Shown here: positions 22,533-59,292 of the stretch, piece after piece
How the letters are laid out: each line of letters starts with the position of its first letter
Position numbering within the stretch: the first letter of the stretch is position 1
Source: Gracilariopsis chorda
Taxonomy: Eukaryota; Rhodophyta; Florideophyceae; Gracilariales; Gracilariaceae
NCBI GenBank assembly: GCA_003194525.1
Contig: NBIV01000255.1
Span: 1 to 64,000 of the forward strand
DNA: 64,000 nt
Direction: 5' to 3'
Notes under the pieces: generated by a model
What the model was told of the DNA's origin: nothing
The model's input: only the letters and a program-made list of their open reading frames with translations
Database searches by the model: none
Made by a program: the position numbers and the translations under genes

Positions 22533-22905
22533 TGTGAGGATAAAGCTTCGCTCACCGTCCTTGTCAGACGGTGAGGAAGAAGGAGATGGAGTGGACCATC
22601 TCACCATCCTTGGGGATGGTGAGAAAGCGTCCTGCCTTCTCACCATCCCCGACGATGGTGTGATGTCTGCTTACAATGCCGCATTCATGCGAGCATGTTA
22701 GGACTCTAACTACCGAGAAAGACGACTAGCGTCTTTCTCTCTGAGTATAAAAGGAGGGAACAGAGCTCGGCCTTTGCCTCTCGTCTGTTCCCCAACCCAT
22801 TATTATCATCAACTCTACCTCTTTAAGCAAAGGAATCATCCTTTTTGGGCCGCCCCTAGCTACCACTACAGGCCGCCCCTTTTTTAAACGTATTATTTCA
22901 TGACA
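22533..22905 (+). repeat. Copia 5' LTR
   Basis: Starts TGTGAGGATAAA, ends ttcatgaca. Differs little from 28635-29379 once the nested MITE is removed. Confidence 0.92.
22551..22753 (+). promoter_or_regulatory. Copia U3: four hairpins and TATA box
   Basis: Three related inverted repeats, 22551-22575 (ctcaccgtc stem), 22600-22623 (ctcaccatcc stem) and 22641-22660 (caccatc stem), are followed by a 10-bp stem at 22715-22739 (gagaaagacg). TATAAAAG lies at 22746-22753, so transcription should start near 22775-22785. All are repeated in the 3' LTR. Confidence 0.7.
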
Positions 22906-22950
22906 TTCCGGAATTATCCGTGGATAATCGTCGATTTTTACCGTTTCCAA

Positions 22951-23070
22951 GTAAGTCATTCGACATCTAAAGAATTGAAAAATTCTGTTGGTACTGATTA
23001 CGTGTTGTTAACCAATACGTACAAAACGTAATTACTAACCACACATTTTTTCTAAATTATATTCTTTTAG
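22951..23070 (+). other. Predicted 120-nt intron in copia leader
   Basis: Donor tttccaa|gtaagt (full consensus) and acceptor attcttttag|tgtcc with a pyrimidine tract. Joining the exons makes A|TG, the only ATG in frame with the zinc-finger ORF. Confidence 0.7.
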
Positions 23071-23705
23071 TGTCCAATCAGCATATAAATACAGTGGCTC
23101 GTAAACAGCCAGGCACTGTTTTCATTTATAATTCAATCTATCCTACGGTAACCGTAGAGCACCCAGCCTCCCCGCATCGTCACCACCTTGCTGTACTACC
23201 AGCGCCACCAACCAATCAGCAACAAACGAACATATTGGACCATCTGACCCCTTCAGAAGTGGACAGTGAATCAGAACCGGGCCACCGCTCAACTACATCC
23301 AGCCGCAAACCCCCAAGTGTCTTTGACCTTGAAGCCGAAGAAATACCAGTGTCTCGCCGCCGCCAACACACACAAGTGCCAGTGCAGCCAAGCACCAGTG
23401 GCATACAGAAGCTCCGCAGGAAAAAGGCCAAGTGTTTGGCTGACCAATTGCAACCAAAGAAGAAGACCACGCGTGTGGCTCGTGCCAAACGCTTCTGCAC
23501 ATTGTGCAATATTCAGTGCAACAGTGCAAAAACCTTTTTTGACCACTGTCAGTCTAAAACACACCGCAACCGCGTGCAGTGTAAGCGTACTCCGCCTTAC
23601 TGTGCTACCTGTAAGCGCTCATTTGAGTCGCATCATCATTTGAACCGCCACAAAAACGGCAAAGCACACTTCAAAGTGCTCTACAATCAAAAATTAAAAA
23701 AATAA
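23070..23705 (+). CDS. Copia accessory U1-type zinc-finger protein
   Basis: The coding exon begins with TG at 23071. The A of the start codon is supplied by 22950 after splicing; unspliced, the frame would start with GTG and contains no Met codon. The product is about 211 residues: a Pro/Ser-rich N half, a basic stretch (KLRRKKAKCL, QPKKKTTRVARAKR) that looks like a nuclear signal, then two fingers, CTLCNIQCN...H...H and YCATCKRSF...H...H, each with a CX2CX12HX5H spacing. That spacing is typical of U1/JAZ-type fingers that bind RNA. It ends 137 nt before gag. I infer an RNA-binding accessory role; no homologue was searched. Confidence 0.72.
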   Translation: MSNQHINTVARKQPGTVFIYNSIYPTVTVEHPASPHRHHLAVLPAPPTNQQQTNILDHLTPSEVDSESEPGHRSTTSSRKPPSVFDLEAEEIPVSRRRQHTQVPVQPSTSGIQKLRRKKAKCLADQLQPKKKTTRVARAKRFCTLCNIQCNSAKTFFDHCQSKTHRNRVQCKRTPPYCATCKRSFESHHHLNRHKNGKAHFKVLYNQKLKK

Positions 23706-23842
23706 ATAGTTTTGCTTTTGCATATTACTCTACGATTAGTAACCAATACCAATAGGCTAATTGTGTACGAGTAAAGCTTAGTTAAACACAGTACTCTATT
23801 ATATTAGCATACAAAACACCGTAGTAATTTGTTTAGTTCACC

Positions 23843-25448
23843 ATGCCGCCACTTAAAGGAAATTTTACGACCAATGCTAGGTATGCAAATCAGCAACAAC
23901 GACAATTTATCGAATTTATTAAGAATATTCAAGAAAACAATACCCAAGCAGAGCCTGCCCAAGTAATCGAACTTCTGAGAACTGAATACCCTCCAGATAA
24001 GCTACTCACTTTTACAATTTTAAGTAATGGATTGCTTATGCGTAAGTTTGCAAAGTTCTTAGAAGATCGTGGAATTAGTCTCGCAGAACATGAAAGCGGT
24101 CACCTCTTAAAAAGAATTGCCAAAACAATTTTTGAGGAGTCTCATTTAGAAGATGCTTTCACTGCTATAGATTTATTCGAGCAAACGCCGGCACCTGCTC
24201 CGCCTACCCGACAGCAACCACAGAGATTTGCAGACGTCGAAGAAGAAACTGAGGTTAAGCAACAACGGGAGCTCTCACCTCCGAAACGCGTGAATGAGCA
24301 AAATCGCCAACGCCAGCCATGGCGTGCTCACAACGCTACCAATGAGCCACAAACGAACTTTGGAGACAGCCGAGACAGGAGAGCTCACTATATTGCGTCT
24401 CGTTTCAAAGATCAATCGTCTAAATCTTCAGGAGCCCTTGGTGAATGTTGGGAGGGATTTCTGAGCGAATATAAGTATGCCGCTCTAGATTACAATCTAT
24501 CCAACCATCAACGACTACAATATTTACACCACCTTTTGCGTGGAAACGCGAAGCGTTTTTACGTACAAAGCGTTGATGGCAGAGTGCGAAGTTTCAGGGA
24601 AGCTTCAGCAGTAATGGAAAAGGAGTATAATTCTCTTTCCCGTCAGAACCGCATTGCTGCCTATTTACGTAACTTACGAATCCAAAAATTTTGCTTCAAA
24701 GAGCTCTTCATTAAGCGACGCTTTGGAGAAACTCCACGAAGAAATTTCGAAGTTGTCCCCACAAGGCCCTATGCACTGCCGATCCGAGCGCAACAGAATC
24801 GAATATTTACAGAATGCTGTAATTGGTAATTCCTGGGCGCGAGATGCCTGCAGCAGGGCCAATGCAGGACTGATTAGTTATCATGAACTTTACGGTCAGT
24901 TGGAAGCTGCAATTCAACTCGATCTAGAAGAGAAAATCGGTCGCATGCGAGATCAAAAGAGTCTTCAGTTCGACTCACTTTCCACCGACGATTTTCAGAA
25001 CTCTGACACGAGTGGAACGTTCTATGCTGGCCAATCCCGATACTTACGTCACCCGCATTCCACAAACCGGACAAACTTTCGTCAATCCAAAAGCAGACGA
25101 AATGTTACCTGTTCGAATTGTGGTAAATTCGGACATGTTGTTGCCGAATGCAGGCAACGCAAGGACCTCACCAACAATGCCGCCAACCGTGTGCAATATT
25201 TGCAACGCAACGGCTACAAGGATCAGAACAAGGCTTTAAAACGTGTCCTGTATGAAATCTGCCAACAGCTCGAAGAGTCCAGTGATTCCGATGAATTCGA
25301 AAGCGCGGAAACATTCTTCGCTTGCAACGGCGAGGCAGATGTTAATGCAGAAAACGAAAACTCTGATCCTTCCGAACAATTCTTTGCATCTAATTTTGGA
25401 ACGCAGAGTAGCGAACCTTCCCTCTCGAATTGCCTTGAGGATTTTTAA
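23843..25448 (+). pseudogene. Copia gag with one frameshift
   Basis: ATG 23843 has a good context (ttcaccATGC) and is the first ATG of the unspliced RNA if the LTR variant at 22900 is ignored. The frame runs to about 24690, where a one-base loss in an A/T run moves it to the frame used to 25448. The second part has a capsid-type helix bundle and the knuckle CSNCGKFGHVVAEC (near 25111). The stop at 25446 overlaps the pol frame with a TTTTAA slip site. Confidence 0.82.
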
Positions 25449-26779
25449 CTGGGAGTACTAACGATTTCTGCCGTAGGGCTCCTCCCAAGCAGCAGAACAA
25501 GAAAGGACCAGACAAGCCCTCCAATGGCTCACCTCGAATCATTCGTTTTTGTACACGAAAGCAAGCACGATACAGTTCACGAACACCTCGTTGGAACCTT
25601 GTTGATATTCACAACGTAAAGACAAGCTCATTCGAGAGAAACCGACGCGAATTTCAAGGCGCATGTCTGGATTCTGGCGCACAACAATCTGTAGTAGGAA
25701 AACAACAAGCCCAAGCGTACTGTAAACTTGTAGGCATTCCATTTAAGCTGAATCACTCCAACAAAGCTTTTAAATTTGGAGATGGCATATACTTCAGCCG
25801 TGGAACCATGCAAGTACGCATTCCAATCCCTGGCAACACTTTTCTTCCACTTGAGATTGACGTCGTTGACGCCTCTGTACCTCTTCTTATTGGACTCGAT
25901 ATCCTGGACTTACACGCTCTTGTACCTGACAACGTGGAAAACATGTTACTCAACAAGAAGTTCAATTGGTCGATACCAATCACGCGGAAATTCGGTCATA
26001 TGTACTTAGAATGGGACTTCTCTGAGATTCTTTACACACAAAGTGAACTCCGAAAAATGCATATGCACTTCTACCATCCAAGCGCAAACAAGCTTTTCAA
26101 CTTGATCTCCCGAGCAAAGCCAGAACATGCCACGGTTGAGACCAGGGAACTCATTGAGCATATCTCAAAATCATGTGCCACGTGCCAACGTTTTACACCC
26201 CGGCCACAGTCCTTCCAAGTATCCATTCCAGGCAAAATAATATTCAACAGTGAAATTGCTTTGGATCTTATGTTCTTGGACAAAATGCCAGTTCTACAGG
26301 TTGTCGACACACAAACGCACTTCATCTCTGCAGTTTTCCTCAAGAGTCAGACCACTGAAGCAATCTGGTACGCATTTCTGGGTTGTTGGGCCACATTATA
26401 CACCGGCTATCCAGACAAGATGAGACTGGATAAAGCCAGACAATTCACATCCGCTCGATGGAAAGAACTGACAAGCATGGCTGGAATCACCTTACAGTTC
26501 TCAGGCGTTGAAAGTCATAATTCCCTTGGAACCGGTGAACGGTACCATGGACCCTTACGTCGTATCTACCAAAAGATTCGATATAGCGAGCCCGATGTCC
26601 CCATCGCCTTAGCCCTTCGACTTGCTGTCAAGGCTATGAACGATACAATGAATCCCGAAGGACTTGTACCTTCACTACTCGTATTTGGAGTTCTTCCTCG
26701 CTTTCCACCGTTGAGCACAGAACTTCCAAATCATGAGGAGCGAATGAGAGCTCTTCAAATCGCGCGCACTGAGATGTAA
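25448..26779 (+). pseudogene. Copia protease and integrase
   Basis: Read in the -1 frame relative to gag. The protease motif is CLDSGAQQSVVG (near 25664) with PLLIGLDILDLH (near 25886). Integrase follows with a zinc module (HFYHPSANKL, then CATC), ALDLMFLD, MRLDKARQFTS and GTGERYHGPLRRIY. An in-frame TAA at 26777 interrupts the polyprotein, and the same frame resumes at once. Confidence 0.85.
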
Positions 26780-28611
26780 ACCATCACTTCGGAACTTCGT
26801 TTGCGCCGTGCAATCGTCGCTCGCATTCCATCTGCCGCATCAAAAAGCTTGAAAGTTGGACAAGAAGTTCTAGTTTATCGAGAAGATTTGAAGCTAATAA
26901 AATGGACTGGACCCTATAAAATTGTAAGAATTGATAACAAACAAGTCTTTATCAATCGCAATGGTGAAACAGTCCAACATTCTATTGCGCAGGTCAAACC
27001 TTTTCATCGTGACGAACTAATGGACAACCTTCATACTTGTCTCGAACCAATACTTCCTGGTGATTTTGAACTTTATGATGTTCAAATCACTGAAGTGTTG
27101 GGTCCTCCCGATCACCGTCGGAACCTACCAGCATTCAGTGAAGCTAAACGAAAAGAGCTGGCAGGATTAATATCGCGCGGAACGTGGAAATTCATTAGAC
27201 AAGACGAAGTTTCAGAAGACGCCAATATCCTCACTGGCCGCTTTGTGCTCGCCATCAAAAATCCTGAGACTGATGAAGAGATATTTAAAGCCAGATTTGT
27301 CGCCCAAGGGCACAAAGATCCAGAAAAAGCTTTTCTAGTGCACAATTCGCCTAATCTAAGACAATACTCAACCCGAATTCTCGTTACCGTCGCCGCTATT
27401 CTTGGATATAGAGTATGGAACACAGATGTTCGTCAAGCATACTTGCAATCCGCACAGAAGCTCATGCGTAAAGAATACCTGAAGCCTCCAAAAGAACTGG
27501 AACTTCCAGCACACATGTTGTTGGAACTTCTCCGCCCTCTTTATGGACTCTCAGACTCTGGAGACTATTGGTACAGAACAATAACAACTCATCTGAAAGA
27601 AGACCTAGGAATGACCCCGACGAAAGGAGATCTGTCACTGTTTATGAAACACGAACAGGCAAAGCTCATTGGCTTAACCGGTGTTTACGTAGATGACCTC
27701 CTTCAATGCGGAAGCGATCAATTCCTGCACAGGCAAAGCTCACCGTTCAGAAGTTTGAATCAAAGGACTTAGAAATGGATTCCGCTTTATTCGCAGGCGT
27801 AAGAGTACGCAAAACCGATAACGGATTTTCACTAAGTCAGGAACATTATGCCAAACGATTGCGAATTCTTCCAAAAGATTGCAACTTCTCTGATTTCCGT
27901 TCATTGAGACATAAACTTGCTTGGTTGACCCACACGCGACCAGATATTTGCTGTGCTGTCAACATGGCTGCCCAAGTTACGGAACAATCTTTCTCAAGCG
28001 AAGATGTGAAGAACATCAACAAAGTCGTAAAACATATTCAGCAAAGTCAAAATGTAAATCTGAAATATGTGAAACTTGATATCAATTCACTCCGCCTCAA
28101 GGTATATTCCGATTCATCATTTGCCAACAATGCAGACAATTCATCCCAGATTGGATTCATTATTCTTCTCGTGGACAAGTTCGATAACTGCAATATTCTT
28201 CATTTCTCAAGTCACAAAATCCGGCGCGTTACCAGATCCGTTTTAGGAGGAGAGCTATAAGCATTTGCAGATGCATTAGATATAGCTTACGTTATCAAAC
28301 ATGACTTAGAGTCAATAATTGGGAAGACAATCCCAATCACAATGCTTACTGAATCAAAAAGTTTATTCGACGTAATAACAAAAAGCTCATCGACATCTGA
28401 AAAGCGACTAATGATCGACATTTCTGCAGTTCGTGAAGCCTACTCGAACCACGAAATTTCCGATGTTGGGTATATCACCTCCGCCAACAACCTCACCGAT
28501 TGTTTTACCAAAGTTAGGAACTGTGATGCTATGAACCAAATTTTAAGTACTTCCACATGCGTTTTAGATATTAATCAACTAGTTATACGTGATTTTATGC
28601 GACAATTGTAA
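26780..28611 (+). pseudogene. Copia reverse transcriptase and RNase H
   Basis: RT begins with the conserved GTWKFI region (near 27178) and shows NTDVRQAYLQS, LRPLYGLSDSG and VYVDDLLQCG, with both catalytic Asp present. A frameshift near 27720 moves to the frame of the C-terminal RT and RNase H (YSDSSFANNADNSSQIGFI). An in-frame TAA at 28258 interrupts RNase H, and the frame resumes to the stop at 28611. Confidence 0.87.
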
Positions 28612-28618
28612 GCCATAC

Positions 28619-28634
28619 GAAAAGAGAAGGGAAT
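28619..28634 (+). other. Copia polypurine tract
   Basis: gaaaagagaaggga lies immediately before the 3' LTR TGTGAGG. Confidence 0.75.
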
Positions 28635-29379
28635 GTGAGGATAAAACTTCGCTCACCGTCCTTGTCAGACGGTGAAGAAGAACGAGATAGAGTGGACCAT
28701 CTCACCATCCTTGGGGATGGTGAGAAAGCTTCCTGCATTCTCACCATCCCCGAGGATGGTTTGATGTCTGCTTACAATGCCGCATTCATGCGAGCATGTT
28801 AGGACTCTAACTACCAAGAAAGACGACTAGCGTCTTTCTCTCTGAGTATAAAAGGAGGGAACAGAGCTCGGCCTTTGCCTCTCGTCTGTTCCCCAACCTA
28901 TTATTATCATCAACTCTACCTCTTTAAGCAAAGGAATCATCCTTTTTGGGCCGCCCCTAGTGTCTATCCGCCCGGATGTAATGTTGCCAAATGACTATTT
29001 TTTAAAGGTTTTGAACCTTTCATAAACGCGTCAGAAACGGTGTTTTTGAATCAAAAGTACGTTTTTGATATCAAAAAAGGCTGTTTTCTGAAGCTCTGTA
29101 GTAAATTAGTCATATTTTACCAGCAGATCTCTATCAAACCATCTGGTTGTCTTATGCTTCTGCTACTCACCGAGCATAAACAACAGAGGCTTAAAATTTT
29201 TGCTATACAAAAACAGGTTGCATAACTTCTACGGACTACAAAAGGCAAAAAAAATCCGATCAAAATAACTAAAATTGAACGTAAAGTTGATTGGTTTGAC
29301 CTCATATGAGGTCAGCGGTCGGATAGACACTAGCTACCAATACAGGCCGCCCCTTTTTTAAACGTATTATTTCACGACA
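28635..29379 (+). repeat. Copia 3' LTR, split by MITE
   Basis: Matches the 5' LTR up to ...ggccgcccctag (28960) and again from ctagctacc to ttcacgaca. The aligned length without the insertion and its 4-bp duplication is 372 bp. Confidence 0.92.
28961..29329. mobile_element. 369-bp MITE in copia LTR, TSD CTAG
   Basis: Termini tgtctatccg and cggatagaca are perfect inverted repeats, flanked by CTAG at 28957-28960 and 29330-29333. The intact 5' LTR shows the empty site with one CTAG. No coding capacity; the autonomous partner is not in the window. Confidence 0.85.
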
Positions 29380-50497: not shown

Positions 50498-52885
50498 TCA
50501 TATCATCTCCACTCCCTCATTCGCGTCCAAAAAATCAAAAGTCTCATTGTCAAGCTCATCCAACCCCAGGTCGTCATCACCCTCGATTACGTCGTCGCGA
50601 GAAACGTATTCATCATCCAGAAATCCGGCGTACACCTGCCCACTTTCCATTTCTTCAATTGCGTCCAATCCTTTTCCGAAACGTAGTTCTGCGTACGAAT
50701 CTCTGCTCAGCTTTTGAACTGTTCTACTTCGGGACAAGAAAAGGGTTTCGTTGCAAGCACAGAAAACGAGTTGAGAGACCTTATCAGTATGTAGCCGATT
50801 TCGCATAGAAGTTCGTATGCGACTTTGCAAACTAAAACTTCTCTGGACGCTTGACGAAGAAGGGCTAGAACATAAAATCCGAAGCGCAAACTCGCGCAAG
50901 CGTGGAGATTCGGTGTACTCAGTCCAATAGTACACAGAGGATCGGCTGTACATCATAAGCGAGTGTCGCAAAACAGGATCAGAAAGCTGTGAGCGCCAGG
51001 ACAGCCGCACTTCCAGGAACTCATCGCACAAACGCTGCACGGCAGCATCCTCTCCACCATCACTGAAAAGCTTTTTACTTACAGGAAACAAGTCCAAGCG
51101 CACAAATGACAGAATGTGCCTGATAACATGTGGCCTATATGCATTCAATTTTTCCATCATACTCCTTATATCCAACAAATATGATACCCGATGTAGGGGA
51201 GTAAGTAGAGCTACCTTGCGATTCGCACCGTTTAAGCGTTCTTCGAATACCCGAATGACATCTGCTCGTCTCTCTGCGGTGTAAAACGATGTTAGTGGAA
51301 GCGATTTGATCTTCGTAAATAACTGCATAGTGGCGGGGTACACTTCCGACAGCAAAGAAGACTCGTCGTCAAACAGTCTCAAGTACTGCCTGATCAGACG
51401 CAGGATGTGGTAGATGTCCAACAGTTTTTGGTAAAGAGAATCATTTCGTACATTCTGCTTAAACAAGTCTCGCTTCTCGCGGTTGCGACTATCGTATAGT
51501 CTCGCGTTAAAGTCAGGACAGTCCACCAATCTCAGTAGTACTTCTTTGCTCCTAAGAAAAGATGCAGCCATACTCTCCGATGATGCAAACCTTGTGGCGA
51601 CCATTTGACACGGCAGAATAGCTGTCTTAGGTAGTTGCACTCTCCCATAGCAATCAGTACCCAATGAAGACTGAGCAGAGCATTGTAAATTGAATGCAGT
51701 CTTCAAATCCTTGAAACGACTGTACAGCTTCGGTTGATTTCTCAAATCACCTATAACGGTTGAAACGGTTGACAGGACCTCCTTAACCCAAGATATGTCA
51801 CCGATGTCCTGCATCAGAAGATTTGCCATGTGAGGCTGGTCTTGTACGGATACAAGATGGGTATACTTCTGAAACAACAGTTCTTTGGCTTTGATACAAG
51901 AACTAGTATTGTCACTGACAACCGCACAAACTCTCTGGATGTCACCGTACTCTGCGATTGCTTCTTCACAAATACCAGCATAGAGAGCAGCGTCACAGCT
52001 CTTCGAACCAGTGTAAATGGACCGCAAGAAAAAGGTTCTTCGTACTTTCTGAGTTCCAGTTAACGACAGCAACACGTTAACTACCGAAGCGCCACACGTA
52101 TCCGTCCATCCATCAAAAACCAATGTAGCGTAACGTTCTGAAAGTAAACCAGCAATTGATTCTAGAACGCGAGATCGCATTGCCTCATAATATCTCTTCA
52201 CATTCTTGTTACCCATTCTTCTCGGTGTAGGAATTTGTTGTCCAAGTGACGGAATCGCAATTGTGATGAGCTGAAAAAAGTCGTCACTGCCTGGTTGCCG
52301 ACTTAACAATGAAAATGGAAGCATGTGTTTCACCATAAACTTAGTGAGAAGCCCGTTAAATCTTGTTCTGTTGTCGTAGGAATCTTCACTATTCTCCTCA
52401 TGAACGTCGAGCTTGTAGGTGACGGCTTTCGGTTTTGTCTGAGAACTATCGCACACTCGTTTGCGAACGGAATCATCGCTCTTCTGTGAAACCTTCCTCT
52501 TTCGATTTCGGGAGATGGCAGGAGTCACGGGAACCCCGAAGAGATCTGATCCTCCTTCTTTGAGAGTAGAATTGTAATATTCTCTCAGGCGTTTGTCTGC
52601 GAGTAACCTTTGTCGAGCAGCAGAAGATATTTTTCCACATCGCAGCAAATGTTGACCCAATTTGGTTGTGTTGGGAATTTTGGCAGTGGTATACCACGAA
52701 CAACCCTTGCACGTTAAAAATAAAGTCGAAGATACATTCGTCGCACCAGTGGAATGTTCACGCATCTCAAAGAGATCTGACATCCACCACTTCCGTTTTT
52801 TGGTGCGATGCGATACACCAGAGCTCGATAATGTACTGCTGCGCTCTGTGCGAGTGTTAGAAGCTGAAATCTCCAACTCACACAT
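50498..52885 (-). CDS. hAT-family transposase, intact (795 codons)
   Basis: An uninterrupted frame. Residues 56-83 form a BED-type zinc finger (C59, C62, H79, C83). The RNase-H-like core shows VFDGWTDT with D258 and VVSDNTSSC with D325 (DUF659 region). The C terminus has the hAT dimerisation pattern SSSVQRSFSLQSRIRTSMRN followed by RL...LV (about 675-715), although the usual ERxWS reads QRSFS. Such proteins cut at short TIRs and make 8-bp duplications. I could not find matching TIRs on either side, so it may be domesticated or its ends have decayed. It is the only full-length transposase of the window. Confidence 0.85.
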   Translation of the reverse strand: MCELEISASNTRTERSSTLSSSGVSHRTKKRKWWMSDLFEMREHSTGATNVSSTLFLTCKGCSWYTTAKIPNTTKLGQHLLRCGKISSAARQRLLADKRLREYYNSTLKEGGSDLFGVPVTPAISRNRKRKVSQKSDDSVRKRVCDSSQTKPKAVTYKLDVHEENSEDSYDNRTRFNGLLTKFMVKHMLPFSLLSRQPGSDDFFQLITIAIPSLGQQIPTPRRMGNKNVKRYYEAMRSRVLESIAGLLSERYATLVFDGWTDTCGASVVNVLLSLTGTQKVRRTFFLRSIYTGSKSCDAALYAGICEEAIAEYGDIQRVCAVVSDNTSSCIKAKELLFQKYTHLVSVQDQPHMANLLMQDIGDISWVKEVLSTVSTVIGDLRNQPKLYSRFKDLKTAFNLQCSAQSSLGTDCYGRVQLPKTAILPCQMVATRFASSESMAASFLRSKEVLLRLVDCPDFNARLYDSRNREKRDLFKQNVRNDSLYQKLLDIYHILRLIRQYLRLFDDESSLLSEVYPATMQLFTKIKSLPLTSFYTAERRADVIRVFEERLNGANRKVALLTPLHRVSYLLDIRSMMEKLNAYRPHVIRHILSFVRLDLFPVSKKLFSDGGEDAAVQRLCDEFLEVRLSWRSQLSDPVLRHSLMMYSRSSVYYWTEYTESPRLREFALRILCSSPSSSSVQRSFSLQSRIRTSMRNRLHTDKVSQLVFCACNETLFLSRSRTVQKLSRDSYAELRFGKGLDAIEEMESGQVYAGFLDDEYVSRDDVIEGDDDLGLDELDNETFDFLDANEGVEMI

Positions 52886-53471
52886 GTTTGAAGAAAGAAC
52901 TTCTCACACAATACAACACATGTCGGAGAAATGCCGGAAGACAAGTATTGGGAAACAAGGTAGAAGAGAGGTTTAGTAGGAACCAGGAGACAACTTCAAA
53001 CGTGAGGCATACAAGAATAGAAAAGAGGTGAGTGGGGTGCGCATTGACAATCCAACCAGGTGCAAATTGCTGTTCTTCGCTAGGAGGAGATTAAAAACCC
53101 TTTAAAAACAGGGCAAAGAGCAGGCCAGCAGTCAACAAAACTCTAGGTTTTGAATCGGTGTAAGTCCCACACCAATTTCAAATATGCCCTTACATCTTCC
53201 ATTACAGTACATGATCTCGTTTCCGATGCACTACGGCCACGAAGGGGCGTGATGCGGTAGACTACTGTGAATTTCACATGCGGAGAACGGACGGCGCTTG
53301 CGGATCAAGTGCACACTTCCTCGACATGCATCACAATTTCATGTTCCACTGCGGGAAGATACTGGCACAACGGTACCAACGGTAAACTGTAGCAATACCT
53401 ACCTATACTTTCAGTGCACTTAGCTTGTCCTTGTCGGCGGCCCCGATCCGCGCGCAAACCGCAACACCGCT

Positions 53472-57378: not shown

Positions 57379-58545
57379 CTAAACTCCATTCGAACGCAGA
57401 AAGAACATCTTCAAGCGACGAGCGTGTGTGCCATGTCTGGCGTAGCGATTGTGTGGTGAAACCAATGTGTAGCGGGGGTGCGTGGCTCTCACAACACGAC
57501 ATGGGCCAAAGAACTTCGAAGAGAATGCAGGCCACTTCATTGTTGTATTCAAGGCTTTTCGTTTTGCAACCAAAACCAGATCGCCAACCTAAAACTTCTG
57601 TATCTTCTTCTCGTCAACATTTTGCCTCCGTCTGAGCGCAGAACGCTCAGCCCTGGGGTTAGATGCTGCTAAAGCTTCAACTGCTCTGAATTTGTCCGTA
57701 GAATTTGTCCTTGTAGTAACCACGCCATCCTCCTCTCGGGCCATGGGCGGCTTCACGCCATAAAGTAGCTCGAAAGGCGAGATTCCACTGGCTAGGTGTC
57801 TGCGACGGTATCCATACAGTACAGAAGAAAGCTCATCGTCCCAACTAGAACGGTTTGCAAGCACCATATTTCCAAGAGACTGCTTACGTGTAGCAACCAT
57901 TCTCTCAGCTCTACCATTCGACATGGGAGCGTAAGCCAGGACTGTCTTCCACTTGATACCATTTTCTTCCATGAAAGCTGAAAGGGAGTTAGAATTGAAG
58001 CAAGTCGCGTTGTCTGACACAATGAACCTAGGCAGCCCGAAAGAAGAAATTATCATCTTTTTCACAAACTCAATAACCACTTGTGATGTAGATGTTTTGG
58101 TGGGAATAGAAATACGCCAGCCAGACAAGTGCTCCACACAAACCAGAAGAAACCTGTGCCCGGACTTGCTTTTCGGGAATGGACCTGCGAATTCAATCGA
58201 GTATACATCAAAAAGAGAGGACATGGGAGTATGCATGTTGCTGTAGTACTTGGGCAATGGGGCCATTCTCTGACATTTGTCACAACTCTTGACATATTCC
58301 ACAATATCTTGGTATATATTGGGCCAGCAGAACATCTCATTCATCATCTTTCTCGTAGCCTTTACGTCCCAATGTCCGATCTCATCATGAAACGACTTGA
58401 TGATGTTTTGCCTCAGTTTGATGTCCGGAACAACTCGTAGGTGATTCACCATTCTTCTGAAGAGCTTCCCTTCCCAGAAAAGGAACCGCTTAGCGTTGCG
58501 TCGGATCGCCTGACGGATGTAGGCATCTTCCTCATCAGAAGGCAA
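57379..58545 (-). pseudogene. Gypsy-3 integrase
   Basis: Read downward from 58545: zinc module (HDEIGHWDVKATRKMM, CDKC), core with SIEFAGPFPK, FIVSDNATCF and NGRAERM. The first catalytic position is Glu where Asp is normal. An in-frame stop at 57589 separates the C-terminal segment (FFGPCRVVRATHPRYTL ... HARRLKMF), which ends at 57379. Confidence 0.88.
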
Positions 58546-59292
58546 CCCAGAAAGGTAGCGAGCAATATTAGCATAGTACGGTTCCAGTCCAGAAAACTGT
58601 ACTGCGTCAGAGGCCAGACAAACCTAATCCCCTTCGTCTTCGTTTACTTCAACTTCATTTCCATGAGTGACCCTAGAGATATAATCGGCAGCACCACTAT
58701 CCTTGCCTGCACGGTACTCAATCTAGAAGTCATATTCAGCCAGGAAATCGAGCCAGCATGCCAAGTGTCCATGTATATCTCGCTTCTGGAATGCATAACG
58801 CAGAGCCATGTGATCAGTGATAACCTTGAATGGAACGGACGAAAGAAGAAACACCCTGAACTTCTTAAGAGCAAATATGACCGCCAAAGCTTCTCTTTCG
58901 CATGCAGAGTAATTATTCTCTGCTGCAGTCATGGTACGGCAGGCAAATTGCAACGGGTGAATCTTTCCATCCTCTTTCTTCTGAGATAACACTGCGCCAA
59001 GGGAAACACTGGAACCGTCGATCTCAACAATGAAAGGCTTCTCAAAGTCTGGAATCGATAGCAATGGGGGCTCTGTCAGCTTCTTCCTCAAACTGTGAAA
59101 TGCATCAAGCATCTCATCCGTCCATGTCAGAGTACTGGTCCCAGATGTAGTACTGTGAAGAGCTGAAGATGTCTCTGCAAAGCCTCTGATGAATCGGCGA
59201 TAGTACCCGGCCAATCCAAGAAATGACCTTAGCTCTGTCGTAGTTCTGGGGATTGGGGCGTCCTGTATCTTCTCAATCTTTGAATAGTCCAA
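58546..59292 (-). pseudogene. Gypsy-3 RNase H and tether
   Basis: [17 protein letters not shown], then RNase H motifs [30 protein letters not shown] and ITDHMALRY. An in-frame stop at 58723 falls just after FLAEYDF; the frame continues into integrase. One base is shifted relative to the RT frame at about 59293. Confidence 0.87.

Follow-up and report, generated by a model that had tools for sequence, protein, structure and literature searches.

In rice tungro bacilliform virus (RTBV), and similarly in badnaviruses, the accessory open reading frames (ORFs) upstream of the polyprotein are AUG-free internally over about 900 nucleotides (nt), which lets ribosomes travel on to the polyprotein ORF behind them (PMC5902531). 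In Epstein-Barr virus, the AUG of EBNA-LP is generated by splicing (PMC12451641). Among long terminal repeat (LTR) elements, walleye dermal sarcoma virus (WDSV) carries an accessory ORF, Orf C, directly 5' of gag (PMC3185748), and plant LTR retrotransposons contain additional ORFs (aORFs) upstream or downstream of gag-pol, most frequently located between pol and the 3' LTR (PMC7264820). Within superfamily Copia, copia and BARE1 were named in 2013 as the only demonstrated splicing cases; the BARE intron measures 104 nt, and part of the RNA is spliced into a second mRNA (PMC3735527). Here we analyse a 64,000-nt stretch of Gracilariopsis chorda DNA (contig NBIV01000255.1, positions 1-64,000, forward strand; hereafter the window), in which positions 22533-28960 are, by their sequence anatomy, one Ty1/copia LTR retrotransposon with a predicted zinc-finger gene upstream of gag. 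The start codon of this gene is absent from the DNA and is formed at a predicted exon junction, within a leader depleted of ATG. We consider it likely that splicing decides, from one promoter, between gag-pol RNA and RNA for the zinc-finger protein.

The probable promoter is marked by a TATA box, TATAAAAGG, at 22746-22754, its function being assigned from sequence. Exon 1, comprising R/U5 and leader, would span approximately 22780-22950, with a start assumed from the TATA box and an end at TTTCCAA. The predicted intron (22951-23070, 120 nt) combines a GTAAGT donor, a branch-like TTACTAA about 33 nt before its end and a TTCTTTTAG acceptor. An earlier, sequence-only reading of this locus had placed the donor CAA|GTAAGT at 22950/22951 and the acceptor TTTTAG|TGTCC at 23070/23071, proposing that their joining makes A|TG; the sequence bears this out. 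Removal of the intron sets this codon at the head of a 211-residue frame without any other Met, the coding part of predicted exon 2 (23071-23705) consisting of TG, 210 codons and a stop. An ATG-free spacer (23706-23842) leads to the gag frame (23843-24829), which begins at a conserved ATG, TTCACCATGC, in good context (A at -3). All these features lie on the forward strand. On the spliced RNA as predicted, the gag ATG is the next one after the junction ATG.

Along the roughly 1.1 kb from the TATA box (22746) to gag, the window copy contains one ATG only, at 22900. The same reading had suspected a CpG mutation of this copy and had cited an ACG at the corresponding position of the 3' LTR. The second point fails, as the 3' LTR match stops at 28960, the counterpart of 22859. 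The ATG is nonetheless a derived state, being found in 3 of 40 aligned copies (the window copy, L025 and L046); the more diverged loci L086 and L088 read ACG here, and L089, also diverged, reads ATG. From 22903 to 23842 the window copy has no ATG, where about 13 had been expected from base composition; the expectation is 12.8 under base shuffling and 12.3 under dinucleotide shuffling, and none of 2000 shuffles of either kind reached zero. This interval nevertheless contains CAT, the reverse complement of ATG, 18 times, indicating that the depletion is strand-specific. As a control, a 975-nt stretch of gag holds 15 ATGs, where base and dinucleotide shuffling predict 15.5 and 12.6, respectively. 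Most of the depletion falls within the zinc-finger frame (0 observed, 7.4-8.2 expected). When synonymous codons were permuted with the Met-free protein held fixed, 2.5 out-of-frame ATGs were expected in the window copy and 3.0 in each of the related loci L079 and L080, and none was observed (P 0.013-0.027).

The arrangement recurs in a second subfamily. Within the sampled genome (91.3 Mb in 1081 contigs), a protein search, in which 150 of 167 candidates were scored and 20 stretches beyond the first 40 were fetched, identified the loci L078-L081. The zinc-finger proteins of the two subfamilies share about 48% identity pairwise and 54% in alignment A1, and their gag sequences about 80% over the compared part. 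The junction of L078-L081 reads GATTAAAA|GTAAGT ... CACAG|TGGCTAA and encloses an intron of 133 nt rather than 120. In L080, TTACTAA stands about 35 nt from the 3' end of this intron. Removing the intron again gives A|TG, which would start a 220-residue protein. Over the 1080 nt before gag these four loci have 0, 1, 0 and 2 ATGs, respectively, and 14-15 CATs.

This recurrence bears on a possible start at a non-AUG codon, in which the zinc-finger frame would be translated from unspliced RNA, for example from the GTG at AG|TG or from an upstream near-cognate, and the splice-like signals would be incidental. The unspliced frame is indeed open from 22998, a GTG stands at 23070, and RTBV ORF I offers a parallel in beginning at AUU (PMC5902531). 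Against it, the donor, TTACTAA and acceptor recur in a subfamily whose intron is of another length and sequence, and in both subfamilies A and TG remain at the junction; we regard such a start as very improbable.

Between the subfamilies, synonymous sites of the zinc-finger frame are saturated (about 107 of 135 changed) at a nonsynonymous divergence (dN) of 0.45, with the frame still open. At intermediate depth, its ratio of nonsynonymous to synonymous divergence (dN/dS) is 0.38-0.62. In L086, the only partner with both genes, the ratio is 0.55-0.57 for the zinc-finger frame versus 0.24-0.25 for gag, taken over open parts only. Because the frame has stayed open through synonymous saturation with dN/dS values of this order, the zinc-finger frame is, as judged from sequence divergence, under selection, less strictly than gag. 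By the same comparison, the scarcity of ATG has outlasted the saturation of synonymous sites.

From these features we infer splicing of the leader, translation of both RNAs and a function of the protein, which could be connected as follows. With the accessory gene placed after the 5' LTR and ahead of gag, the one LTR promoter would give one primary transcript. If the intron is kept, scanning ribosomes would meet no AUG for about 1 kb and would reach the gag AUG, such that unspliced RNA would serve gag-pol and presumably also the genome. If the intron is removed, A|UG would become the first AUG and direct synthesis of a basic protein whose two fingers are of a type common among RNA-binding proteins. 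Selection to keep gag translated would hold the whole leader, accessory frame included, free of AUG in all frames.

The same layout could support a bicistronic RNA. Under near-constitutive splicing, the spliced RNA would make both proteins, with ribosomes that miss the junction AUG scanning 770 AUG-free nt to gag, and splicing would separate mRNA from genomic RNA instead of choosing products. The order of ATGs on the spliced RNA suits this explanation, as does the contrast between contexts in the window subfamily, weak at the junction ATG (C at -3, T at +4) and good at gag; because of these two properties, leaky scanning could yield both proteins from one RNA. There are also precedents: the AUG-free ORFs I and II of RTBV, and those of badnaviruses, permit leaky scanning (PMC5902531), and green-algal bicistrons are AUG-poor upstream of ORF 2 (PMC11892635). 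However, the strong junction context of the second subfamily (A at -3, G at +4 in L080) would leave little leakage. In addition, the ATG-free state of the intron in the window copy, L078 and L080 would be of consequence only where ribosomes scan unspliced RNA, but this count is too small for significance: the intron alone has 0 ATGs versus 1.5-1.9 expected and the spacer alone 0 versus 1.2-2.3, neither being significant given such short stretches. We judge bicistronic expression as the main mode to be unlikely; some leaky scanning to gag on spliced RNA may occur, more plausibly in the window subfamily than in that of L080. The earlier model of one promoter and two products is partly supported, in that the signals, the junction ATG, the finger frame and the ATG scarcity recur in a saturated second subfamily. 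Its assignment of one product to each RNA may be too strict.

Copies of the window element were aligned for 40 of 89 first-look candidates from a DNA search, all 40 that were scored; further copies exist. Two of them (L037 and L041) have truncated or rearranged leaders and were excluded from leader ATG and CAT counts (n = 38), while splice-site counts include all 40. The donor A|GT is retained in 37 copies, and so is the acceptor AG|TG. Over 22780-23842, 16 of 38 copies have no ATG. Nine of the 16 belong to tandem arrays, and seven lie at unique insertion sites; outside the arrays, 7 of 24 copies are ATG-free. The arrays consist of head-to-tail copies spaced about 6.0-6.1 kb apart on contigs C1040, C520, C673, C312, C1058, C1017 and C136 (units L010-L017, L022, L026, L029, L030, L034 and L036). 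Upstream of each tandem LTR is the end of another unit's internal region, which identifies them as LTR-sharing arrays.

Since near-identical tandem units make up most of the cleanest copies, the ATG-poor leader could be viewed as a functionless by-product of composition or of the recent amplification of one odd copy. This explanation appears scarcely credible, given that CAT is undepleted, that shuffles never reach zero and that the synonymously saturated second subfamily is alike. The more a copy has diverged from its closest counterpart, the more leader ATGs it tends to hold (rho 0.53, P 0.0007, n = 38), whereas CATs show no such correlation (rho 0.20, P 0.22), and the same holds, more weakly, without the 14 tandem units (n = 24; ATG rho 0.46, P 0.023; CAT rho 0.05, P 0.81); shared ancestry of the copies makes these P-values overstate the evidence, and they serve as a guide only. 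Gained ATGs are mostly confined to 1-3 copies per position, as expected if constraint is lost after insertion. Young copies that are clean and older ones that gain ATGs are what a choice made by splicing predicts.

Besides the weak junction context and the shared ancestry noted above, several observations weigh against that choice. At least one leader ATG is present in 22 of 38 copies. ATGs at 22994, in the intron, and 23376, in the zinc-finger frame, are common to six copies, five of which have a GTAGGT donor. Five of the six (L026, L029, L030, L034 and L036) belong to tandem arrays; the sixth, L031, is close to the end of a contig and its 5' flank is unique. One mutated insertion followed by tandem amplification would explain the sharing, though this is not proven. 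In 18 of the 20 diverged stretches the start of gag could be placed; of these 18, L078 and L080 alone are ATG-free, the remainder having 1-15 ATGs; several diverged loci lack a donor under the patterns used. The close-pair dN/dS of the zinc-finger frame is noisy, from 0.24 to 1.59, the gag of L080 has a stop after 239 codons, and one public relative of the protein, P0002, looks degenerate and contains four Met. Among the older loci, L083, L084 and L095 have 8, 10 and 9 leader ATGs, with recognisable acceptors and decayed donors, and several older loci have broken frames. We read these older ATG-rich loci as probably decayed copies. The sequence-only reading had expected related full-length copies to lack leader ATGs and to keep both splice sites. 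Taken literally, that expectation fails in 22 of 38 copies for ATGs, in 3 of 40 for the donor and in 3 of 40 for the acceptor. Even so, a pattern in which the youngest copies are cleanest and older ones gain ATGs fits decay after insertion, with the 22994/23376 group as the exception.

The predicted product is a 211-residue basic protein with two C2H2 fingers of the JAZ/matrin type, each C-x2-C-x12-H-x5-H, the pair being preceded by a basic stretch. The zf-met and zf-C2H2_jaz profiles score above curated cut-offs in the window protein, L080 and the public relatives P0001, P0069 and P0070. In a structure model, residues 1-104 have pLDDT below 50 and the finger region 81-89, for an overall mean of 55. 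Its structural neighbours are headed by JAZ with double-stranded RNA, TUT1 with U6 RNA and chains of spliceosomal complexes, all at Z below 5, with DNA-binding fingers ranking lower. Foldseek gave nothing at E ≤ 0.001; sorted by E-value, its list is led by DNA-binding fingers such as CTCF and ZBTB7A. A profile search of PDB sequences gave a best E of 0.011, to a U-shaped cofactor finger. RNA binding is accordingly a lead from modelling, not a result. Public relatives are few, namely P0001, P0002, P0069 and P0070. P0069 (138 aa) and P0070 (172 aa), from contigs of about 1.5-1.9 kb, contain the same two fingers and no internal Met, at 47-48% identity over 45-49% of the query. A scan of viral contigs with the zinc-finger alignment found no relative. 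A reverse-transcriptase search of public proteins found 66 relatives.

P0001 starts exactly at the junction Met and, from residue 2 on, differs from L078 at 0 of 219 positions. We rejected it as proof of splicing; a gene finder of the prokaryotic type could validly start at the genomic GTG at AG|TG and would report the identical protein.

Were the JAZ-type protein nuclear, it might bind its own leader and either block further splicing or export unspliced RNA, in the manner of Rev. Such feedback would turn the element from an accessory phase to a gag-pol and genome phase. We offer it tentatively, as a possibility with the odds well against it.

The element as a whole is bounded by direct repeats of 327 nt, a 5' LTR at 22533-22859, starting TGTGAGG, and a 3' LTR at 28634-28960, which differ at 10 of 327 positions. 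Inverted motifs of the CTCACCATCC / GGATGGTGAG type occur in the LTRs at 22597-22665 and 28698-28766, with an 81% complementary pair between the two LTRs. Comparison of the flanks by eye, for the window copy only, showed no clear match that would mark a target-site duplication. Downstream of gag, the pol part includes matches to an Asp protease and an integrase (rve) at 25439-26779, both under Pfam curated cut-offs (rve E 3.9e-7, 30.7 bits, just below 32.6), and a copia-type reverse transcriptase, RVT_2, at 26780-27772 (E 2.3e-18, above cut-off), all on the forward strand. The direct flanking LTRs and an integrase upstream of RVT_2 are features of copia membership. In the window copy, gag is interrupted, and gag-pol (23843-28260) is broken into overlapping frames; in six young copies (L009, L011, L013, L014, L018 and L020) gag stays open as far as the retrieved sequence extends.

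Elsewhere in the window, whose GC content is 48.0%, an 801-residue open frame on the reverse strand (50501-52903) has a DUF659 match and a sub-cut-off match to the hAT dimerisation domain, consistent with a hAT-like transposase. Integrase_H2C2 and rve matches at 57592-58623, also on the reverse strand, belong to part of a second LTR element, which we take to be gypsy-like. In the genome at large, seven matches to the phycobilisome linker (PF00427), spread over seven contigs, indicate a red alga, in which such genes are nuclear; contigs C88 and C101, two of the seven, bear copies of the retrotransposon as well. An elongation-factor match, L098, is an EF-G nearest to those of bacteria and says little about the host, and L099 holds an EF-1-alpha-like frame.

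The zinc-finger frames of the window copy, L079 and L080 resemble the upstream ORFs of RTBV in having no internal AUG. RTBV also splices, but for another ORF. Its upstream ORFs use weak or non-AUG starts on RNA that has not been spliced, whereas the copia start codon would exist only after the predicted splicing; the context of that codon is weak in the window subfamily and strong in L080. EBNA-LP shares a start codon formed at an exon junction, the copia junction being predicted from sequence. To our knowledge, EBNA-LP is an unrelated herpesvirus gene without an AUG-purged gag leader.

In BARE1 and Drosophila copia, splicing gives a Gag-only mRNA through removal of pol or a frameshift in it, whereas the predicted intron of the present element precedes gag and its removal would make an accessory protein. 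WDSV Orf C differs in being a mitochondrial protein, and PMC3185748 identifies no specific Orf C transcript. For plant aORFs, no splice-made start codon is described in the corresponding part of PMC7264820. Each ingredient therefore has a precedent, in RTBV, EBNA-LP, BARE or WDSV Orf C. For the combination in a copia element we found none in the openly licensed literature searched, which does not show its absence from print.

Copies of many ages in one genome amount to a natural mutation experiment, in which selection on scanning becomes directly measurable. Annotation may be affected too, as genes of this kind could escape gene finders that depend on a genomic ATG. Should RNA data confirm the junction, the element would be a copia retrotransposon that creates a start codon by splicing and thereby chooses between Gag-Pol and a protein of regulatory appearance, an organisation otherwise linked to complex retroviruses and pararetroviruses.

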